Below, one piece after another: positions 251 to 22,526 of a stretch of DNA of 64,000 nucleotides (within the stretch, counting starts at the first letter, position 1; each line of letters starts with the position of its first letter). Source of the DNA: Chlorobiaceae bacterium (GTDB taxonomy: Bacteria > Bacteroidota > Chlorobiia > Chlorobiales > Chlorobiaceae); assembly GCA_013334965.1 (NCBI GenBank), contig JAAXWO010000009.1, positions 1 through 64,000 on the forward strand. Direction: 5' to 3'. The notes below the pieces were generated by a model, which worked only from the letters and a program-made list of their open reading frames with translations, was not told the origin of the DNA and did not search any database. The position numbers were made by a program, and so were the translations under genes.

Positions 251-1084
251 TCAGATTCCGCTTCCGCCCTGCTGGATGCTTTCCGTGACAAGGGCCCTGT
301 TCATCTGGCTGCTTTCCCTGTGTACCAGATCGAACGCGGTGAAGAGCTGTTTGCGGTAATGGTCGAAACGATCATCGGTCCGGTTTCTCGGTGAAGCCAG
401 GTCGATATCCATGATGTTGACGAATCTGCCTGGGTTCGGGGCCATGAGCACGACGCGGTCCCCCAGATAGATGGCCTCTTCAAGGTCATGAGTGACGAAA
501 ACCACTGTCAGCCGCCTTTTTTTTCGAAGTTCGAGCAGCTCGTCCTGGAGGTGCAGTTTCGTGAATGCGTCGAGAGCGGCGAACGGTTCGTCCATGAAGA
601 GCACGCTGGGCTCGACGGCAAGGGCCCGGGCCAGGGAAACACGCTGCTTCATGCCTCCCGAAAGCTCGTGAGGGTGACGCTGGGCGTAGGTCGCAAGCCC
701 GACGCTGTCGAGGGCGGCCAATGCTTTCTGTTTTGCTTCCTGATCCCTGATGCCCCGGCACTTCAGGCCGAAAAGGACATTGTCGAGCGCTGATTTCCAT
801 GGAAACAGCCCGTAGTCCTGGAAGAGCATGATATGGTCCGGATCGGGTTCTGTGACAGGCTTGCCGTCTATCGTGACCGTGCCGCCGTTCGGCTTTTCGA
901 ACCCGGCCATCAGGTTGATCACCGTCGATTTGCCGCAACCGCTCGGGCCTACGAGGCAGACGAACTCTCCTTCATTGATGTCGAGGCTCGCTTTGGCAAG
1001 GGCGGTCTGCGTTTCGCCCGATGACGAACGATATGTTTTTTCGGCATTGACGAGCGATATTTTCGGTGTGCGTCTGTTGTTCAT
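251..1084 (-). CDS. ABC transporter ATP-binding protein, nitrate/sulfonate/taurine type
   Basis: This is the ATPase of an SsuB/TauB/NrtD-like importer, last gene of the cooS operon. Seen are Walker A GPSGCGKST, the Q-loop in LFQDYGLFPW, the signature LSGGMKQRVSLARAL, Walker B VLFMDEPFAALD and the switch His in VFVTHDLEEA. I chose the ATG at 1084 (MNNRRTPK..., 277 aa). An alternative ATG at 1114 overlaps the permease stop as TAATG and would add 10 residues; translational coupling could favour it. The open frame continues further upstream but is then only a shadow of the permease. The substrate cannot be read from the ATPase; the operon context suggests something tied to the CODH-like protein. 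Confidence 0.9.
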   Translation of the reverse strand: MNNRRTPKISLVNAEKTYRSSSGETQTALAKASLDINEGEFVCLVGPSGCGKSTVINLMAGFEKPNGGTVTIDGKPVTEPDPDHIMLFQDYGLFPWKSALDNVLFGLKCRGIRDQEAKQKALAALDSVGLATYAQRHPHELSGGMKQRVSLARALAVEPSVLFMDEPFAALDAFTKLHLQDELLELRKKRRLTVVFVTHDLEEAIYLGDRVVLMAPNPGRFVNIMDIDLASPRNRTDDRFDHYRKQLFTAFDLVHRESSQMNRALVTESIQQGGSGI

Positions 1085-1113
1085 GGTGTCACGGTAGCCT
1101 TGTGATGATTGCA

Positions 1114-1881
1114 TTATGATGGTACGCCAGATTTTCCCCAACGCCGGTTGATGACATGTTCTGCGAGGGTGATGAGCGAATTGAGGATAAGTCCGAGCAG
1201 GCCAACCAGGATCATTCCTGCCATGATCAGGTCGGTACGGAGGAAGTTCCTCGCGTCGATGATCAGGAACCCGAGTCCTGAGTCCGCGCCGAGCATCTCG
1301 CCTGCGACGAGGTGAATCCATGCGGTGCCGAGCGCAATGTGCAGGCCGGTCATGATGCCGGGAAACGCAGCCGGGATGATGATCGAAATGAACACCAGGG
1401 ATGGTTTGGCTCCGAAGTTCCGGGAGACCTTGTAGTAGCTTTGGGGGATTGTCCGGATCGCTCCGATCGTGGCCATCAGCACCGGGAAAAATGACGCGAT
1501 GAAGATGATGAAAATCGCCGGGGCATTGCCGATGCCGAACCAGAGTACGGCAAGCGGGAACCAGGCGATGGGCGAAATCGGTCGGATAAGCTGCACCAGA
1601 GGGTCGATTCCGCGGAGGCATAACGGGCATCGGCCGAGCAGGATTCCCAGTGGGACGGCGCAGCATACGGCTGCCGAATAGGCGATGCCGAGCCGGAACA
1701 GGCTGATGCCGATATCGCTCCATAACCGGCCTGCGTTGACCAGTTCTATAATCGCCAGACCGATGTTGAGCGGTCTGGGGAAGAGCTCCTCCGGGTAAAA
1801 AGAGGCCGCCGCGTGCCAGATGAGCAGGAACGCGGCGACTACTGCGGTTGGAACGACGATTTTGATGAGTTTATCAGCCAT
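1114..1881 (-). CDS. ABC transporter permease, SsuC/TauC/NrtB type
   Basis: A 255-aa inner-membrane permease of the binding-protein-dependent family, with several hydrophobic helices starting at LIKIVVPTAVVAAFLLIW. An EAA-like loop is seen in FGAKPSLVFISIIIPAAFPG near residues 155-175, where the ATPase docks. The ATG at 1881 is chosen because it overlaps the stop of the preceding binding-protein gene by 8 bases and has AAAGGGTG upstream. A longer frame from 1926 would run back into that gene. It is followed by the ATPase with at most a one-base TAATG overlap, so the three transporter genes look translationally coupled. Confidence 0.9.
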   Translation of the reverse strand: MADKLIKIVVPTAVVAAFLLIWHAAASFYPEELFPRPLNIGLAIIELVNAGRLWSDIGISLFRLGIAYSAAVCCAVPLGILLGRCPLCLRGIDPLVQLIRPISPIAWFPLAVLWFGIGNAPAIFIIFIASFFPVLMATIGAIRTIPQSYYKVSRNFGAKPSLVFISIIIPAAFPGIMTGLHIALGTAWIHLVAGEMLGADSGLGFLIIDARNFLRTDLIMAGMILVGLLGLILNSLITLAEHVINRRWGKSGVPS

Positions 1882-2863
1882 GCCGTAACACCCTTTTTGC
1901 AAACGAGTCGTCGATATAGCCGCCAAGATCGGCTTTCGAGCCGGGAAGCCCGAATTTGACCATAAGGTTACGGGTTGCCGAGAAATCTGCCAGATCCGGG
2001 GCGAGATTGTTGAAGGTCAGGCGGTCTTTGGGCGAAGTCAGCACTGTCTCCACGATTTGTGGTTTCTGGCCGAGCAGGCGCTGTGATTCTGTCGCTGCCT
2101 GTACAGGGTTTGCTTCGATGAATGAAGCGGTTCTTGACAGCCCGCCAACCAGCTCCTGGACTGCTTCCGGGTATGAGCGGATCACATTCTCCCGGAGGTT
2201 CAGTACGCAGCAGATGTGGTTCGGCCAGATATCTTTCGACAGCATGAGCACCTTGCCTACATGCTGGGCTTCAGCCTGTGCGCCGAATGGTTCGGCAACA
2301 ATGTATCCGTTGATTCTTCCGGAAGCCAGGGCGATAACCATTTCCGGCGGAGGCATGTCGATGATTCTGACGTCACGGGCCGCATCGAGCCCCCTTTCTG
2401 CAAGGATTTTGCGAAGGAGGATGTTGTGGGTCGAAAACTGGCTCGGAACGGCAATGGTTTTGCCCTTGAGGTCTTCGATCCTGTTGATTTCACCGCTGTT
2501 CTTGACCGTGATCGCGCTGCCGTTCCTGTGACCGAGCAACACGACCCTGATCGGTATGCCCTTTTCGCGCAGGGCAAGGCTCATCGGGGTGAGCAGGAAC
2601 GATCCGTCAATCGCGCCGGATTTGAGCGCTTCTGCGTTCTCCGGCCAGGAAGAGAAGCGGACCGGCTGAATGGTCAGGTTCTTGAACTGCTCCCGGAATG
2701 CGGCGATCAGCAGCAGGTGGTCGGTGATCGGGAGATAGCCGATCTTGAGGTTCACTTTGCCTGTCCCTGCAATTGCTGTGGCAAAGTTCCCGGCAACAGC
2801 TGCCGGAAGCTGGGCTCCCAGTGCAATAAGTCCTGTTTTGAGAAGAAAATCGCGTCTGTTCAT
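1874..2863 (-). CDS. ABC transporter substrate-binding protein, NMT1/SsuA/NrtA-like, with Tat-type signal
   Basis: A 329-aa periplasmic binding protein. The N-terminus MNRRDFLLKTGLIALGAQ resembles a twin-arginine signal, followed by a mature domain opening with LKIGYLPITDHLLL. This is the fold used for nitrate, bicarbonate, taurine, alkanesulfonates and thiamine precursors; further family-typical stretches are IEDLKGKTIAVPSQFSTH and GRINGYIVAEPFGAQA. It starts 6 bp after the cooS stop, so it is surely co-transcribed with cooS. The ligand is unknown. Sulfonate or nitrate are the family defaults, but the cooS link leaves room for a metal complex or a small C1/S compound. Confidence 0.88.
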   Translation of the reverse strand: MNRRDFLLKTGLIALGAQLPAAVAGNFATAIAGTGKVNLKIGYLPITDHLLLIAAFREQFKNLTIQPVRFSSWPENAEALKSGAIDGSFLLTPMSLALREKGIPIRVVLLGHRNGSAITVKNSGEINRIEDLKGKTIAVPSQFSTHNILLRKILAERGLDAARDVRIIDMPPPEMVIALASGRINGYIVAEPFGAQAEAQHVGKVLMLSKDIWPNHICCVLNLRENVIRSYPEAVQELVGGLSRTASFIEANPVQAATESQRLLGQKPQIVETVLTSPKDRLTFNNLAPDLADFSATRNLMVKFGLPGSKADLGGYIDDSFAKRVLRHG

Positions 2864-2869
2864 AATGGT

Positions 2870-4873
2870 TTAATCGTGGTTATGATGATGGTGGTTATGA
2901 TGATTGCCGGCGTGTTCAGCTTCGTGCTGAATCACGGAGAGTCTTGTTTCGGAAGCCGTCGCGCACGTCGTCCAGCCGAGAGCCGCACGGCGCTGATCGA
3001 AATGGGCGATGAGTTGGCGGGCGAGAGAAACCGGATCGGGATCGACGACCATGACGCCGCCGAGCATTCCTGCGGTGTCTTCGTAAAAGAAGCGTGAGAC
3101 CTTGTCCGAACCGGCGATCGGCGGCGGTACGCAGTGGTATGAGTTGAGGCCGAGAAGCCTGAAGCCGAGTGCCGCGCCTATCCCTTTTTCATTCGACCAT
3201 TCAGGGCTGGAGAATGCAAGCGGCAACCCTGTGAGCGGAAGGTCGGATGCCGTCGCTATCGCCCTGAACAGTGCCGATGCCCTTGCATTGTCGAGGCATT
3301 CGCCCATATGCCAGACCGGTGGGAGCTTCAGGGGAGACAGAAGGTCGCGGAGGCCTTTTCCGGCTCCTTCGAGCCCTTCCGGGATGCAGAAACCGAGTTT
3401 GAGGAGCGCATAGGCGGCACAGCCGTTGGTCAGGGCGATCACGTCATGCGCGATCAGTTCGTCAGCGACCTTGACGATGGCCTCCTCGAAGACCACTTTC
3501 GGATTGTTGCAACCGACCAGATTGACGATTCCCCTGATTTTTCCCGATTTCAGGTGCTCGACGATCTTGTCCATTCCGCCGAAGGTTTCGGTGAGGTTCT
3601 CTACGGAAAAGCCGACTTCGGCATCCATGCGGGCCTGGGGGATGAAGACCTGGCCGCTGTTACGCTGCCTGAACCCGTCGATGCCGCGCCGGATGATGCG
3701 CTCTGCCAGGGCATCTGCCTCACCGAGGTTCGCGTGGTGGTGGTCGAACGCGATGTGTTCGGCTCCCGGCAGGCGAGCGGAGTCGCTGGTCGTGACCACG
3801 CGGGTATGGAAGCAGGCCGCGACGTCCATGATTCCTGGAAACACATCCTGCACGTCGGCGACCCAGAGATCGAGAGCCCCGGTGGCGAGGGCAAGTTCAG
3901 CTCCGACCGCGTTGGTCAGCGGATGGATGTCGCCGAACTTCGCCAGTGCAGAGTGGCCGGAACAGCAGATGCCGTAGAGCCGTATTCCTTCAGCCCCGAC
4001 AGCCTTTGCCTCATTGATGAGCTTTTCGCTCCGGGCGGCCTTCACGATTGCGGCGACAAGGACAGGGGAGTGGCCGTGCACCGCTATGTTGAGCGTTTCG
4101 AGCCTGATGGAACCGAGGTTGGTCGTGATTCGGCTCCGTTTCGGCAGTCCGTACAGGCAGTCCATGGCGATCGATGAGCCAACGACGCTGCTCCATGCGA
4201 AGGCAAGCCCGCACCGCAGCAACTGGAGCGAAACGTTGTACCAGTCGCCGTCGGTCCCGACCGATGTCCGGTGAAGCGCTTCAAAGACCTCGTGGTAGGC
4301 TCCGATCGGCATGATGTCCAGTGCTTTCCATACCTCAAGGCGCTCTTTCGGCGCGAGGGCTTCAAGGGTTTTGTAGGGACCGGGAATCGTTCTGCAGAGA
4401 TCGTCCAGCAGGATCATTGCGATCTCGCCTGCAAGCGCCGGGATCGGTTTCCCAGGTTCATGGATCCCGAAAGACTTTGCGGTGGCTATGACCTTTTCAG
4501 GTCCGAGGATTTCGAGATTGATGTCGCCGTCAGCCGCTTTTTTCAGTGCGAGCATTACCTCTCGGCCCCTTGCGCCATGAGCGGCCACGCCGGCTGCAGT
4601 CCAGCGAAGGATATTGCGTGCTACAATGAGGTGCGCATCGGCGCCGCAGACTCCGCGGGGGCTTTTCTGCGTGACCTTGCATGGGCCCATATGGCAGTTT
4701 TTGCAGCAGGTGCCGTCAAGACCGAACCCGCAGAGTGGCTTCTGGGCGTCGAATCTGTCGAAAGCGGTTTCAATGCCCATTTTTTCCATATGGATGAGCA
4801 TCTCCCTGACCGATGTGTCAGGAGTTCTTTCGATAACATCTTTTTTTTCGGGGAATTTTGGCCTTATGCTCAT
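2870..4873 (-). CDS. cooS: Ni,Fe carbon monoxide dehydrogenase-like protein (CooS/AcsA family), atypical active site
   Basis: A 667-aa member of the anaerobic CODH family, which oxidises CO to CO2 at a Ni-Fe-S C-cluster. The N-terminal D/B-cluster region is intact (CGFG...TCCKNCHMGPCK at about 48-65, then GVCGA near 76). C-cluster ligands are seen at His268 (HGHSP), Cys303/304 (GICCSG), Cys455 (GCNNPK), Cys485 (NGCAA) and Cys526 (HMGEC); catalytic-type Lys563 is in NEKG. The family motif DVQC is DVQD here: residue 343, codon at 3845-3847, is Asp in place of a cluster Cys. Residues 650-667 form a tail with 9 His, a possible nickel-binding segment. The operon continues with an ABC importer, and no CooC, CooF or hydrogenase is adjacent. 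CO oxidation activity is therefore uncertain. Confidence 0.9.
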   Translation of the reverse strand: MSIRPKFPEKKDVIERTPDTSVREMLIHMEKMGIETAFDRFDAQKPLCGFGLDGTCCKNCHMGPCKVTQKSPRGVCGADAHLIVARNILRWTAAGVAAHGARGREVMLALKKAADGDINLEILGPEKVIATAKSFGIHEPGKPIPALAGEIAMILLDDLCRTIPGPYKTLEALAPKERLEVWKALDIMPIGAYHEVFEALHRTSVGTDGDWYNVSLQLLRCGLAFAWSSVVGSSIAMDCLYGLPKRSRITTNLGSIRLETLNIAVHGHSPVLVAAIVKAARSEKLINEAKAVGAEGIRLYGICCSGHSALAKFGDIHPLTNAVGAELALATGALDLWVADVQDVFPGIMDVAACFHTRVVTTSDSARLPGAEHIAFDHHHANLGEADALAERIIRRGIDGFRQRNSGQVFIPQARMDAEVGFSVENLTETFGGMDKIVEHLKSGKIRGIVNLVGCNNPKVVFEEAIVKVADELIAHDVIALTNGCAAYALLKLGFCIPEGLEGAGKGLRDLLSPLKLPPVWHMGECLDNARASALFRAIATASDLPLTGLPLAFSSPEWSNEKGIGAALGFRLLGLNSYHCVPPPIAGSDKVSRFFYEDTAGMLGGVMVVDPDPVSLARQLIAHFDQRRAALGWTTCATASETRLSVIQHEAEHAGNHHNHHHHNHD

Positions 4874-5015: not shown

Positions 5016-5669
5016 TCAGATATGGTATTCGATGTTGTCGATAAGTCCGGCCTTGATGGCGAACATCATCAGCTCCGGGCTGCTCGTGACGCCGAGTTTC
5101 CGGAAGATGTTTTTGCGATGGGTCATCACCGTATGGAAGCTGATGTGCTTTTTTGTCGCAATCTCCTTGGTGGAGAGGCCTGACGAAATAAGTCGTACAA
5201 TCTCGATTTCGGACGAGGTGAGCAGGCATGCGTCTTCGATCGGCCCGTCCTGTTTCAGGAGGATGTCGAGCACGCTTCCCGAATAGGCTTTTTTCCCTTT
5301 CATCGCAGATGTGACCGCATGGAGCAGCTCCGTCCTGTCGTCTGTCTTCAGGGCTATGTTCCTGATGCCGGCGTTGTTGAACTCCTTGATCTGCATCTGG
5401 TTGATCGAGTTGCTGAGGATCAGGAGATGGGAGCCCGGATTGTGCTCCCCAATCTCCTTGAGATCGTTGATCGACCTGAAATCCAGCAGCACATAATCAG
5501 TGACGATCAGCGAGACTTCGTTCTGTTTCAGGTATTCGATCAATTCGTTTCTCGACGATACCGCTTCGATTCGGTAGCCTGTCTCGGAAAGGAGCGATTT
5601 CAGCGCCTCGGTGGTGAGGTACTGCGTGTCCGCGATGAGGATCGTGCCCCTCTTGCTGCTGCTTTCCAT
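5016..5669 (-). CDS. Response regulator, NarL/FixJ family (orphan)
   Basis: A 217-aa two-domain regulator. The receiver (about 8-125) has acidic Asp13 (LIADTQ), a likely phospho-acceptor Asp57 (IVTDYVLLD) and the conserved Lys in IALKTDD. The C-terminal LuxR-type helix-turn-helix (about 148-210) reads LTSSEIEIVRLISSGLSTKE then ISFHTVMTHRKNIFRKL. No sensor kinase is adjacent, so its partner is elsewhere. It lies directly upstream of the cooS operon on the same strand with the conserved dyad between them. That makes it a candidate regulator of cooS and perhaps cysK, but nothing in the sequence proves it. Confidence 0.9.
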   Translation of the reverse strand: MESSSKRGTILIADTQYLTTEALKSLLSETGYRIEAVSSRNELIEYLKQNEVSLIVTDYVLLDFRSINDLKEIGEHNPGSHLLILSNSINQMQIKEFNNAGIRNIALKTDDRTELLHAVTSAMKGKKAYSGSVLDILLKQDGPIEDACLLTSSEIEIVRLISSGLSTKEIATKKHISFHTVMTHRKNIFRKLGVTSSPELMMFAIKAGLIDNIEYHI

Positions 5670-5763: not shown

Positions 5764-7053
5764 CTATACCCCGGCAAGCGCTTCGTCGAGCGCTTCGATA
5801 AGGTCGTCAATATGTTCGAGCCCTATCGAAAGCCTGATCAGGTCTGAAGAGAGCGCGCTTTGCAGACGCTGCTCTTCGGTCAGCTGGCTGTGCGAGGTGC
5901 TTGCCGGATGCAGGATGAGGCTTTTTGCGTCACCCACGTTAGCCACATGCGAGAAAAGCCTGATCGTGTCGATGATCTTTACGGATGCTTCATAACCGCC
6001 CTTGACGCCAAAGACGACCATGCCGCCGAAACCGTTTTTCAGGTCCCGTGATGCCAGCGCGTATGAAGGGTCCTCCTTCAATCCGGGGTAGCGAACCCAT
6101 GCCACTTTCGGGTGGTTTTTAAGGTGTTCGGCAACTTTCAGGGCGTTTTCGGAGTGGCGGATCATTCGCACCGGCAGGGTCTCGATGCCCTGGATGAACA
6201 TCCATGAATTGTCTGGCGAAATGCAGGCGCCGAGGTTCCTCAATGGCACCGTGCGAACCCTCAGTGCGAAAGCGATTGGTGCGAGCGGTTCGGGAAGGTC
6301 GATGGCCCAGCGCAAGCCGTGGTAGTTGCTGTCGGGTTCGGTGAAGAGCGGATGCTTTCCTGCTTTCCAGTCGAATCGACCTGCATCGGTAATGATGCCG
6401 CCGATAGCTGCGCCATGTCCCCCGATCCATTTGGTGAGCGAGTTGATGACGATGTCGGCTCCCAGCTCGATCGTGTTGAGCAGGTAAGGCGTAGTGAATG
6501 TGGCGTCGACGATGAGCGGCAGGCCGTTGCGGTGAGCCACTTCTGCGATGGCCCTGACATCGGTGTAGTCGAGCACCGGGTTACCGATGGTTTCGATATA
6601 GAGCGCCCTGGTCTTGTCGTTGATCGCTTTTTCAAAGTTGGATGGATCCTTCGGATCGACGAAGGTGACGTTGATGCCGAGTTTCGGCAGGATTGAGTCG
6701 AACTGCGTGTAGGTGCCGCCGTAGAGGTTGTTGGCCGATACGATGTTGTCGCCCGCTTCGGCAAGGGTGATGATGGTATAAAAGATGGCCGAGGTGCCCG
6801 ATGCGAGGGCGACCGATGCGGCTCCGCCTTCGAGTTGGGTTATACGCTGTTCGAGGACGTCGGTGGTCGGGTTCATCAACCGGGTATAGATATTGCCGAG
6901 CTCCTTCAGGGCGAACAGGTTTGCGGCATGCTCGGTGTTCCTGAACAGGTAGGAGCTGGTGCGGTAGACAGGTACTCCGCGAGACATGGTGCCGTCGACC
7001 GGCTGTCCGGCATGAAGGGCTACGGTTTCAGGACGATAGGAGGTGTGACTCAT
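5764..7053 (-). CDS. metY: O-acetylhomoserine sulfhydrylase (aminocarboxypropyltransferase)
   Basis: A 429-aa PLP enzyme of the Cys/Met metabolism family that combines O-acetylhomoserine with sulfide or methanethiol to give homocysteine or methionine. The start MSHTSYRPETVALHAGQ at 7053 matches family N-termini; the frame is open further upstream but only from a weak extension. The PLP-binding lysine is in INSLTKWIGGHG, and the LALASGTSAI-type cofactor loop reads VALASGTSAIFYTI. Length and the long GGHGAAIGG region fit MetY better than the shorter cystathionine synthases. It follows a DUF4395 membrane gene by 76 bp on the same strand. With cysK, the CGS-type gene, metK and ahcY in this window it forms a sulfur amino acid and SAM group. 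Confidence 0.92.
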   Translation of the reverse strand: MSHTSYRPETVALHAGQPVDGTMSRGVPVYRTSSYLFRNTEHAANLFALKELGNIYTRLMNPTTDVLEQRITQLEGGAASVALASGTSAIFYTIITLAEAGDNIVSANNLYGGTYTQFDSILPKLGINVTFVDPKDPSNFEKAINDKTRALYIETIGNPVLDYTDVRAIAEVAHRNGLPLIVDATFTTPYLLNTIELGADIVINSLTKWIGGHGAAIGGIITDAGRFDWKAGKHPLFTEPDSNYHGLRWAIDLPEPLAPIAFALRVRTVPLRNLGACISPDNSWMFIQGIETLPVRMIRHSENALKVAEHLKNHPKVAWVRYPGLKEDPSYALASRDLKNGFGGMVVFGVKGGYEASVKIIDTIRLFSHVANVGDAKSLILHPASTSHSQLTEEQRLQSALSSDLIRLSIGLEHIDDLIEALDEALAGV

Positions 7054-8270: not shown

Positions 8271-9407
8271 ATGAGTTTTCAGACAGACACCATCCATGCG
8301 GGAGTTGCTCCCGACAAGGCATATGGCGCAATCATGACCCCGATATACCAGAGCTCGACTTTCGTTTTCGAGGATATCGGCAAGCATCGCGGCTTCGATT
8401 ACACCAGGAGCGGCAACCCGACGCGCAAGGCGCTCGAGGACAGCCTTGCCGCCCTTGAAGGGTGCTCGTGCGCCGTGGCCGTAACGACGGGCATGGCTGC
8501 CGTGGCCACCGTGCTGCACCTTTTCAACGCTGGGGACGAGATCATCGCGACCGACGACTGTTACGGCGGTACGGCCAGGCTGCTCAAGACCATCAATGAG
8601 CATTTCAACATCCGCGTCAGGTTCGTCAGCCTGAGGGAGCCCGCCGGGATTGAGGCGCATGTCACCGAAAAGACAAAGGCGATATGGATTGAAACTCCCT
8701 CCAATCCGCTGCTGAACCTGATCGATATCGCTGCAGTTACGGCTATCGCCCGCAAGCACGAATTGCTGTCGATCGTCGACAACACCTTTCTTTCGCCATA
8801 TCTGCAGCAGCCGTTCACCCTTGGGGCGGACATCGTTGTGCATTCGACCACCAAGTACCTGAACGGCCATTCGGATGTGGTCGGCGGTGCGGTGCTGTCC
8901 AACAGGCCCGACCTCGACGAGAGGGTGAAGTATCTGGTCAACACGCTCGGAACCTGCGCCCAGCCTTTCGATTGCTGGCTTGTGCTGCGCGGCATTAAAA
9001 CCCTGGTGCCGAGGATGAAGGAGCACGAGCGTAACGCCCGCATCGTCGCGGAGTTCCTCGATGCCCATCCAAGGGTGAAGCACGTCTACTATCCGGGACT
9101 TGAGAGCCATCCCCAGCATGAGCTTGCCAGGCGCCAGCAGCGAGGATTCGGCGGCATGGTTTCGTTCGAGCTCGAAGGGGGGATTTCGGAGGTCGAGAAC
9201 TTGCTTCGCGCCACCAGAATCTTTGCTTTGGCAGAGAGCCTCGGCGGAGTAGAGTCGCTCATCGAGCACCCGGCGACGATGAGCCATGCCTCAATGGGCG
9301 CAGAGCACCGGCAGGAAGTTGGCATTACCGACACGGTGATCCGTCTTTCGGTTGGCATCGAAGACCCGGACGATCTGGTCGCCGACCTGAAACAGGCGCT
9401 TGGCTGA
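8271..9407 (+). CDS. Cystathionine gamma-synthase / beta-lyase family PLP enzyme
   Basis: A 378-aa trans-sulfuration enzyme acting in the cytoplasm. The start MSFQTDTIHAGVAPDKAYGA at 8271 has GGAGTGA upstream; a longer frame runs back through the riboswitch and is not coding. The PLP lysine is in HSTTKYLNGHSD, and GNPTRKALEDSLAALE and TGMAAVATVL are family blocks. Cystathionine gamma-synthase (MetB), gamma-lyase and O-succinylhomoserine sulfhydrylase cannot be separated by eye. The SAM-I riboswitch points to methionine synthesis, so gamma-synthase or a sulfhydrylase is more likely than a catabolic lyase. Confidence 0.88.
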   Translation: MSFQTDTIHAGVAPDKAYGAIMTPIYQSSTFVFEDIGKHRGFDYTRSGNPTRKALEDSLAALEGCSCAVAVTTGMAAVATVLHLFNAGDEIIATDDCYGGTARLLKTINEHFNIRVRFVSLREPAGIEAHVTEKTKAIWIETPSNPLLNLIDIAAVTAIARKHELLSIVDNTFLSPYLQQPFTLGADIVVHSTTKYLNGHSDVVGGAVLSNRPDLDERVKYLVNTLGTCAQPFDCWLVLRGIKTLVPRMKEHERNARIVAEFLDAHPRVKHVYYPGLESHPQHELARRQQRGFGGMVSFELEGGISEVENLLRATRIFALAESLGGVESLIEHPATMSHASMGAEHRQEVGITDTVIRLSVGIEDPDDLVADLKQALG

Positions 9408-21110: not shown

Positions 21111-22526
21111 TTAATAGCGGTAGTGTTCCGGTTTGTAGGGTCCTGATACCGGTACGCCGATGTAGTCGGCCTGTTCGGTGGTCAGGGTTGTCAGCCTGAC
21201 ACCGAGCTGTTCGAGGTGCAGGCGTGCGACCTCTTCGTCCAGGTGTTTCGGCAGACGGTAGACATCGATGTCGTAGTTGTTCTTCCAGAGTTCGATCTGG
21301 GCGAGCGTCTGGTTGGTGAACGAGTTGCTCATGACGAACGACGGGTGGCCGGTGGCGCAACCGAGGTTAACCAGGCGGCCTTCGGCGAGCAGGTAGATGC
21401 AGTGGCCGTCTTCGAAGGTGTACTTGTCGACCTGTGGCTTGATGTTGAGCCTTGTGACCGTCTTGTCTTCGTAGAGCCTGTCGACCTGGATTTCGTTGTC
21501 GAAGTGGCCGATGTTGCAGACGATGGCTTCGTCTTTCATCTGCTTCATGTGCTCAAGGGTGATGACATCCTTGTTGCCGGTGGTGGTGACATAGATGTTG
21601 CCTTCGGCGAGCGCATCTTCGATGGTTGAGACTTCGTAGCCTTCCATGGCGGCCTGCAGTGCGCAGATCGGATCGATTTCAGTGACGATAACCCTGGCGC
21701 CGTATGCCCTCATGGAGCGTGCGGAACCCTTGCCTACGTCTCCGTAACCGAGAACGACGACCACCTTGCCTGCGACCATGACGTCGGTCGCGCGCTTGAT
21801 GCCGTCAGCCAGCGATTCGCGGCAGCCGTACAGGTTGTCGAATTTCGATTTGGTGACCGAGTCGTTGACGTTGATGGCAGGGAAGAGCAGTTCGCCCTTT
21901 TCCATCATCTGGTAGAGCCTGTGCACGCCGGTGGTGGTCTCTTCAGAGACGCCCTTCATTTCGGCGGCGACCTTGTGCCAGCGGTTGGTGTCTTCAGCGA
22001 AGACATCCTTCAGCTGCTGGTAGAGCGCTTTCTCCTCGGCGTTACCGGGGGTTTTGTCGAGCAGGGAGGGGTTCTCTTCGATCTTGTAGCCGAGGTGGAT
22101 CATCAGGGTAGCGTCACCGCCGTCGTCGACGATGAGGTTCGGGCCTTTGCCGCCTTCGAACTCAAGGATCTGGCGGGTGCACCACCAGTATTCGTCGAGG
22201 GTTTCGCCCTTCCATGCGAACACCGGGATACCGGCAGCTGCGATTGCTGCAGCTGCATGATCCTGGGTCGAGAAGATGTTGCAGCTCGCCCAGCGGACTT
22301 CTGCTCCGAGGTCGACCAGCGTCTCGATGAGCACGGCGGTCTGGATGGTCATGTGCAGGGAGCCGGTGATACGGGCGCCTTTCAGCGGTTTCTGCCCTTC
22401 ATATTTTTTGCGCGTGGCCATAAGGCCCGGCATCTCTTTTTCAGCGATATCGATCTCTTTGCGGCCCCATTCGGCAAGCGAAATGTCAGCTACTTTGTAA
22501 TCGAGCACTGCTGCTTCTGTTGTCAT
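21111..22526 (-). CDS. ahcY: S-adenosylhomocysteine hydrolase
   Basis: A 471-aa NAD-dependent enzyme that splits SAH to homocysteine and adenosine, removing the product inhibitor of methyltransferases and recycling homocysteine. [20 protein letters not shown] is the standard start, [19 protein letters not shown] holds substrate residues, [14 protein letters not shown] is the NAD site, [11 protein letters not shown] is family-specific, and the C-terminus is [10 protein letters not shown] with the cofactor-contacting Lys and Tyr. The length includes the about 40-residue insertion common in bacterial forms. It lies 88 bp downstream of metK on the same strand. The RNA leader in front of metK probably controls both. 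Confidence 0.97.

Follow-up and report, generated by a model that had tools for sequence, protein, structure and literature searches.

What does a homolog of CO dehydrogenase (CODH) do if one of the cysteines that hold its C-cluster is an aspartate? This question is raised by a gene in a 64,000-nucleotide stretch of DNA from a Chlorobiaceae bacterium (GCA_013334965.1, contig JAAXWO010000009.1; hereafter, the window). A first-pass annotation had reported that this CooS-like protein has DVQD where active CODHs have DVQC, with the other cluster residues in place. It suggested that the protein has either an altered C-cluster or a different role, such as redox, sensing, or metal handling.

Table 1. 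Features of the window that are discussed in the text.
Feature	Position	Strand	Remarks
NitT/TauT-family ABC ATPase	251..1090	-	coordinates from likely start
NitT/TauT-family ABC permease	1114..1926	-	part of the ABC trio
NitT/TauT-family substrate-binding protein (SBP)	1874..2863	-	invariant H112, S144, M175, E191, C218-C219; H146 in 96% (75 aligned SBPs)
CODH-like (CooS-like) gene	2870..4873	-	667 aa, clade B-3 type, His-rich C-terminal tail NHHNHHHHNHD
Asp343 codon GAT	3845..3847	-	second C-cluster Cys position, motif DVQD
LuxR-type response regulator	5016..5669	-	between metY and CODH-like gene
metY-like O-acetylhomoserine/O-acetylserine sulfhydrylase	5764..7053	-	TIGR01326, 598 bits vs cut-off 495
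SAM riboswitch (S-box) RF00162	7964..8103	+	56.3 bits; upstream of divergent cystathionine gamma-synthase-family gene
Cystathionine gamma-synthase-family gene	8271..9407	+	beyond metY, opposite strand to CODH-like gene

The aspartate is real. The minus strand reads GAC GTG CAG GAT, which encodes D340, V341, Q342, and D343. In phmmer alignments, D343 pairs with the cysteine of DYQC in 6t7j and with the cysteine of DVQC in both 6elq (CODH-IV) and 7zkk. These alignments are gap-free nearby, so no other cysteine substitutes at the ligand position. The other residues named in the first-pass annotation are all present: H268, C303/C304, C455, C485, C526, and K563, and the D/B-cluster cysteines at 48, 56, 57, 60, 65, and 76. 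Our numbering is independently confirmed by two homologs that resemble clade D-1 (L117 and L118), which have glutamate aligned at 304 and cysteine at 343, matching Glu295 and Cys338 of CooS-V. The protein scores 518.4 bits against TIGR01702 (the cut-off is 478), and its AlphaFold model (pLDDT 87) has a TM score of about 0.9 to solved CODHs. With Asp343, it does not have the complete set of five C-cluster cysteines that characterizes active Ni-CODHs.

The first-pass annotation treated the aspartate as peculiar to this protein, but the residue is fixed throughout a whole group that was described earlier. We scanned 84,980 genomes and took the best 80 relatives; together with the loci from Chlorobi, this gave 82 non-duplicate sequences from Chlorobi, Desulfuromonadales, Chromatiaceae, Firmicutes, and others. 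Position 343 is aspartate in 80 of these 82 sequences and glutamate in the other two, and all of the close homologs share this altered ligand. This agreement rules out a sequencing error, chance, or misalignment. All of the other C-, B-, and D-cluster ligands are unchanged across the 82 sequences, as are the acid-base histidine and lysine (H99 and K563). As a separate observation, residue 102 (codon 4568-4570, minus strand) is histidine in most members from Firmicutes, which forms HxxH with H99, and it is arginine in the branch with Chlorobi and Desulfuromonadales and in several others.

The substitution is already described in the literature: in clades B-1, B-2, and B-3, the second C-cluster ligand is aspartate (or glutamate), clade B-3 is marked by a His-rich C-terminal region, and genes for a NitT/TauT-family ABC transporter accompany all of the clade B groups (Inoue et al. 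2019, PMC6344411). The window protein has every feature of B-3 that these authors listed, and we found no difference from that clade. Its D-cluster is of Type II (Cys-(X)7-13-Cys-Cys, here C48-X7-C56-C57), and its C-cluster residues are H, C, D, C, C, C (H268, C304, D343, C455, C485, and C526). It retains the acid-base histidine and lysine, it ends in ...EHAGNHHNHHHHNHD, and the genes for the transporter are adjacent (251-2863). In a tree that was built without a labelled reference set, it groups with the protein from Ruminococcus flavefaciens, which is an example of clade B in a recent survey (eLife 2026, PMC13056359). By sequence, tree, and predicted fold, then, the window protein is a clade B-3 homolog of Ni-CODH. 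According to the same survey, the function of clade B "could not be deduced," and none of its proteins had been characterized. Its authors raised a possibly degenerated function. We find it hard to credit that these proteins are functionless remnants: the reading frames are open, the ligands are invariant across phyla, and the operon is conserved.

The closest cysteine-bearing relatives that we found are from 11 genomes of Bacillota and are 37-41% identical. They fit Inoue's group B-4. In our tree, which included 10 of these 11 sequences, they form the sister group with 100% support. The main aspartate group and a divergent group from Chlorobi (42% identical, with DQQD) are joined with support of 98.6/99, so a single change from cysteine to aspartate explains the data, which indicates that Asp343 arose once. 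The divergent proteins are a second Asp-type CODH-like protein of Chlorobi (L029, L030, and L031). Their operons also encode two ABC ATPases, a c-type cytochrome, and a SAM methyltransferase, with a CooC-like ATPase near the SBP in L030 and L031. A similar operon in Prosthecochloris was interpreted as CO metabolism (PMC10158934), one example of such a reading of related Asp-type operons.

Might these proteins still be CO dehydrogenases? On this reading, an oxygen would take the place of one sulfur ligand at an iron of the cubane, and the electrons from CO would feed sulfur assimilation or another pathway. Aspartate can ligate iron in other [4Fe-4S] proteins. The invariance of the other ligands, of the acid-base histidine and lysine, and of the nickel-binding Cys526 would fit with this, as does the full set of cysteines in the sister group. 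On the other hand, we did not recognize a CooF-like ferredoxin, ACS, hydrogenase, or FNOR among the common neighbors. Also, in CooS-V of Carboxydothermus hydrogenoformans (clade D-1), a ligand change at another position goes with the loss of nickel and of CO activity (PMC9311411). Overall, we consider CO dehydrogenase activity to be improbable.

CooS-V also raises the possibility of an HCP-like redox or nitrosative-stress protein. Like the window protein, it has the CODH fold and an acidic residue instead of one C-cluster cysteine, and it is HCP-like (PMC9311411); and there are weak matches to models of hydroxylamine reductase. However, CooS-V has glutamate instead of Cys295 and keeps Cys338 (the DVQC position), while the window protein has the opposite arrangement, with C304 and the acid-base histidine retained. 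The different replaced ligand rules the window protein out of the CooS-V/HCP-like class, and the neighbors of Asp-type genes are sulfur genes, not stress genes. An HCP-like function is very unlikely.

To see which genes accompany the Asp-type genes, we took 81 loci and clustered, without bias, all of the neighbors up to 6 kb away. The ABC trio is the most common neighbor (66-69 of 81 loci), and the SBP or the permease is near the CODH-like gene in 70 of these 81 relatives. Next come, among others, PLP enzymes of cysteine or methionine metabolism (17 loci), cysK (14), LysR-type regulators (10), and cysE (6). Core sulfur genes (metY/CGS, cysK, cysE, or MalY-type) lie within 6 kb at 24 of the 81 loci, and of these 42 genes, 41 run in the same direction as the CODH-like gene. 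At the other 57 loci, this interval is free of core sulfur genes, which counts against a role in sulfur metabolism. We also examined 21 whole genomes, and in 7 of them the CODH-like gene has cysK or a metY-family gene no more than 2 kb away, compared with 0.25 expected from copy number; this enrichment is indicative only, as some of these genomes were picked with their neighbors already known. In the cysteine-bearing sister group, the association does not vary: all 11 genomes have cysK (confirmed by TIGR01139) directly upstream of the CODH gene and on the same strand. The order is cysK, CODH, and then SBP wherever the contig goes on, and 2 of the 11 genomes carry two metY/CGS-type genes as well. 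At one locus (L185), no separate ORF was recovered for the permease.

In the window, metY lies upstream of the CODH-like gene. The LuxR-type regulator between them is also found at related loci from Chlorobi (L034, L036, and L037), and we saw no partner kinase near it. In two loci from Megasphaera (L087 and L102), cysE-cysK-CODH is preceded by a T-box leader (bit scores of 110 and 114; the cut-off is 93), and we read its specifier loop as GGAA-UGC-C, which corresponds to cysteine. There are promoter-like sites between cysK and CODH in Megasphaera, so it is uncertain if they are cotranscribed. A search for riboswitches directly ahead of the CODH operon at 17 loci gave just two T-boxes, of which one belongs to a gene in the opposite orientation, and none of the other loci searched has an element comparable to the cysteine T-box ahead of the operon. 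The CODH-like proteins from these Megasphaera loci (L087:7671-9896 and L102:7728-9896) have N-terminal His-rich extensions of over 60 residues with H-D/E-H repeats.

At another locus from Chlorobiaceae (L038), the gene order is cysK, a family-2A encapsulin of the SrpI type (PF19307, 392 bits), an encapsulin-cargo cysteine desulfurase (NF041166, 790 bits, slightly below the cut-off of 800), CODH, and ABC. SrpI encapsulins are also annotated as "major membrane protein I." Both SrpI and its cargo are proteins of sulfur starvation, which induces SrpI (PMC8049743). Several loci from Butyrivibrio and Ruminococcus are flanked by genes for nitrogenase-like component 1. Four loci from Ruminococcus (L092, L100, L110, and L189) encode two small conserved membrane-like proteins, of about 125 and 107 amino acids, directly 3' of the CODH-like gene.

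The SBP gives further hints about function. In the closest solved structure to its predicted structure (pLDDT 92), which is 3UN6 from S. aureus, zinc is bound; we take 3UN6 to be SA0167. Next closest are the CmpA/NrtA, TauA, and SsuA types. The cysteine pair C218-C219 aligns where NrtA/CmpA-type proteins have PGK, whose lysine has a role in binding nitrate, and H146 aligns with their SMHN. We also considered the SAO (selenocysteine-assisted organometal) transporter and rejected it, as matches to the models for SaoA, SaoP, and SaoX were far under the cut-offs, and a literature search gave no relevant result.

The main rival to a role in sulfur metabolism remains metal uptake. Inoue and colleagues proposed that the transporter imports Ni2+ (or another metal), which the His-rich tail would store and pass on to the active site; in other respects the CODH-like enzyme would be ordinary (PMC6344411). 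The invariant H112 and C218-C219 and the near-invariant H146 across 75 SBPs could be metal ligands, as their sequence conservation and the zinc in 3UN6 hint. His-rich N- or C-termini at 64 of the 81 Asp-type loci also suggest metal handling, and we did not find CooC in the host genome. All of this fits with metal uptake, and the SBP residues, the zinc in 3UN6, and the His-rich tails also count against the sulfur reading. But metal uptake leaves cysK, metY, the cysteine T-box, and the encapsulin unexplained, and the same type of SBP occurs in operons that have cysK or an acyl-CoA-dehydrogenase-family gene and no CODH. Furthermore, an operon of this type in S. aureus (SA0166-SA0168, putatively TauABC-type) belongs to the regulon of the cysteine regulator CymR and is repressed 11- to 34-fold by sulfide (PMC5480029). 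We view metal uptake as unlikely, and the wider gene context points to sulfur assimilation instead.

The CODH-free operons are informative. The top-scoring plasmid homolog of the SBP is from pANL of Synechococcus elongatus. It retains the motif (YLPIT, W, H, S-HN, CC), and it is in a run of genes with the ABC trio, cysK, a gamma-glutamyltransferase-family gene, and, in place of CODH, an acyl-CoA-dehydrogenase-family gene. On plasmids from Agrobacterium, Deinococcus, Thermomicrobium, and Variovorax, the ABC trio comes after an acyl-CoA-dehydrogenase-family gene. These five plasmids are consistent with an O2-dependent counterpart of the CODH operon. By analogy, the CODH-fold enzyme might do without O2 what a flavoprotein may do in aerobes. 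Another parallel is the isethionate reductase Isr of Rhodobacter capsulatus: a nitrogenase-like metalloenzyme and an SsuABC-type importer (SsuCAB) are both needed for anaerobic assimilation of isethionate, and the locus also encodes a serine O-acetyltransferase, a cysteine desulfurase, and "major membrane protein I" (PMC11423573). The folds of Isr and the clade B proteins are unrelated, and the reaction of the clade B proteins is putative.

Overall, the conserved gene context makes the link between the clade B genes and sulfur well supported, and we infer that a sulfur compound enters through the transporter and is then acted on by the CODH-like enzyme. We estimate a probability of roughly 0.6 that the clade B-3 protein and its NitT/TauT-family transporter work together in anaerobic sulfur assimilation by importing a compound and releasing sulfide from it. 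The first-pass annotation's choice between an altered C-cluster and a different role was thus a fair one, and the gene context favors a different role, although not the redox, sensing, or metal-handling functions that it listed, for which the support is weaker than for sulfur assimilation.

We speculate that the pathway would run as follows. The periplasmic SBP would capture a small sulfur-containing compound, which the ABC transporter would import. Electrons would enter the CODH-fold enzyme via the D and B clusters, and the enzyme would reduce the compound at its Asp-ligated C-site, freeing sulfide (or sulfite). CysK or MetY would then fix the sulfide into cysteine or homocysteine. Because CysK uses sulfide, we favor sulfide as the product; sulfite would require another reductase. 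Short sulfonates are possible substrates, given the parallels with SsuABC and Isr. A small anion such as thiocyanate is also possible, given the SBP's similarity to binders of nitrate or bicarbonate and the known reactivity of CODH with small linear molecules. The ancestor of the clade probably had cysteines at all of the C-cluster positions and an existing link to cysK; the single later change of Cys343 to aspartate presumably made the site less suited to CO/CO2 chemistry.

For clade B as a whole, we see even odds that its "CO dehydrogenases" are an unrecognized system for acquiring sulfur anaerobically, with an importer and reductive release of sulfide or sulfite for CysK or MetY by a CODH-fold enzyme whose C-site is Asp-ligated in most lineages. 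Two more observations count against the sulfur reading. First, the host Chlorobium carries DsrA, so sulfide may often be at hand. Second, expression of cooS4 of Calderihabitans maritimus, which is of the cysK/ABC type, was slightly higher with CO, but the difference was not significant (PMC7306483). That cysK adjoins cooS was noted in Calderihabitans (PMC7306483) and in Megasphaera (PMC11338639), in both cases without an interpretation in terms of sulfur. In an incomplete search of the literature, we found no paper that proposes a sulfur role for clade B, and a paper on the cysteine response of Clostridium perfringens has no content on CODH.

In many genomes, some of them from gut bacteria, clade B genes are annotated as CO dehydrogenase. 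If they function in sulfur assimilation, then these annotations are misleading, and a clade without an assigned function gains a role that can be tested directly. The CODH fold would also join the nitrogenase-like enzymes as a metallocluster scaffold that was recruited to scavenge sulfur anaerobically. Equivalent operons that encode either Asp-type or Cys-type enzymes provide a natural comparison of C-cluster ligation.

Elsewhere in the window, a SAM-Chlorobi RNA (RF01724, 23930-24016, minus strand, 70.6 bits) immediately precedes a metK-like gene (to 22615), which is followed by an ahcY-like gene (21111-22526).
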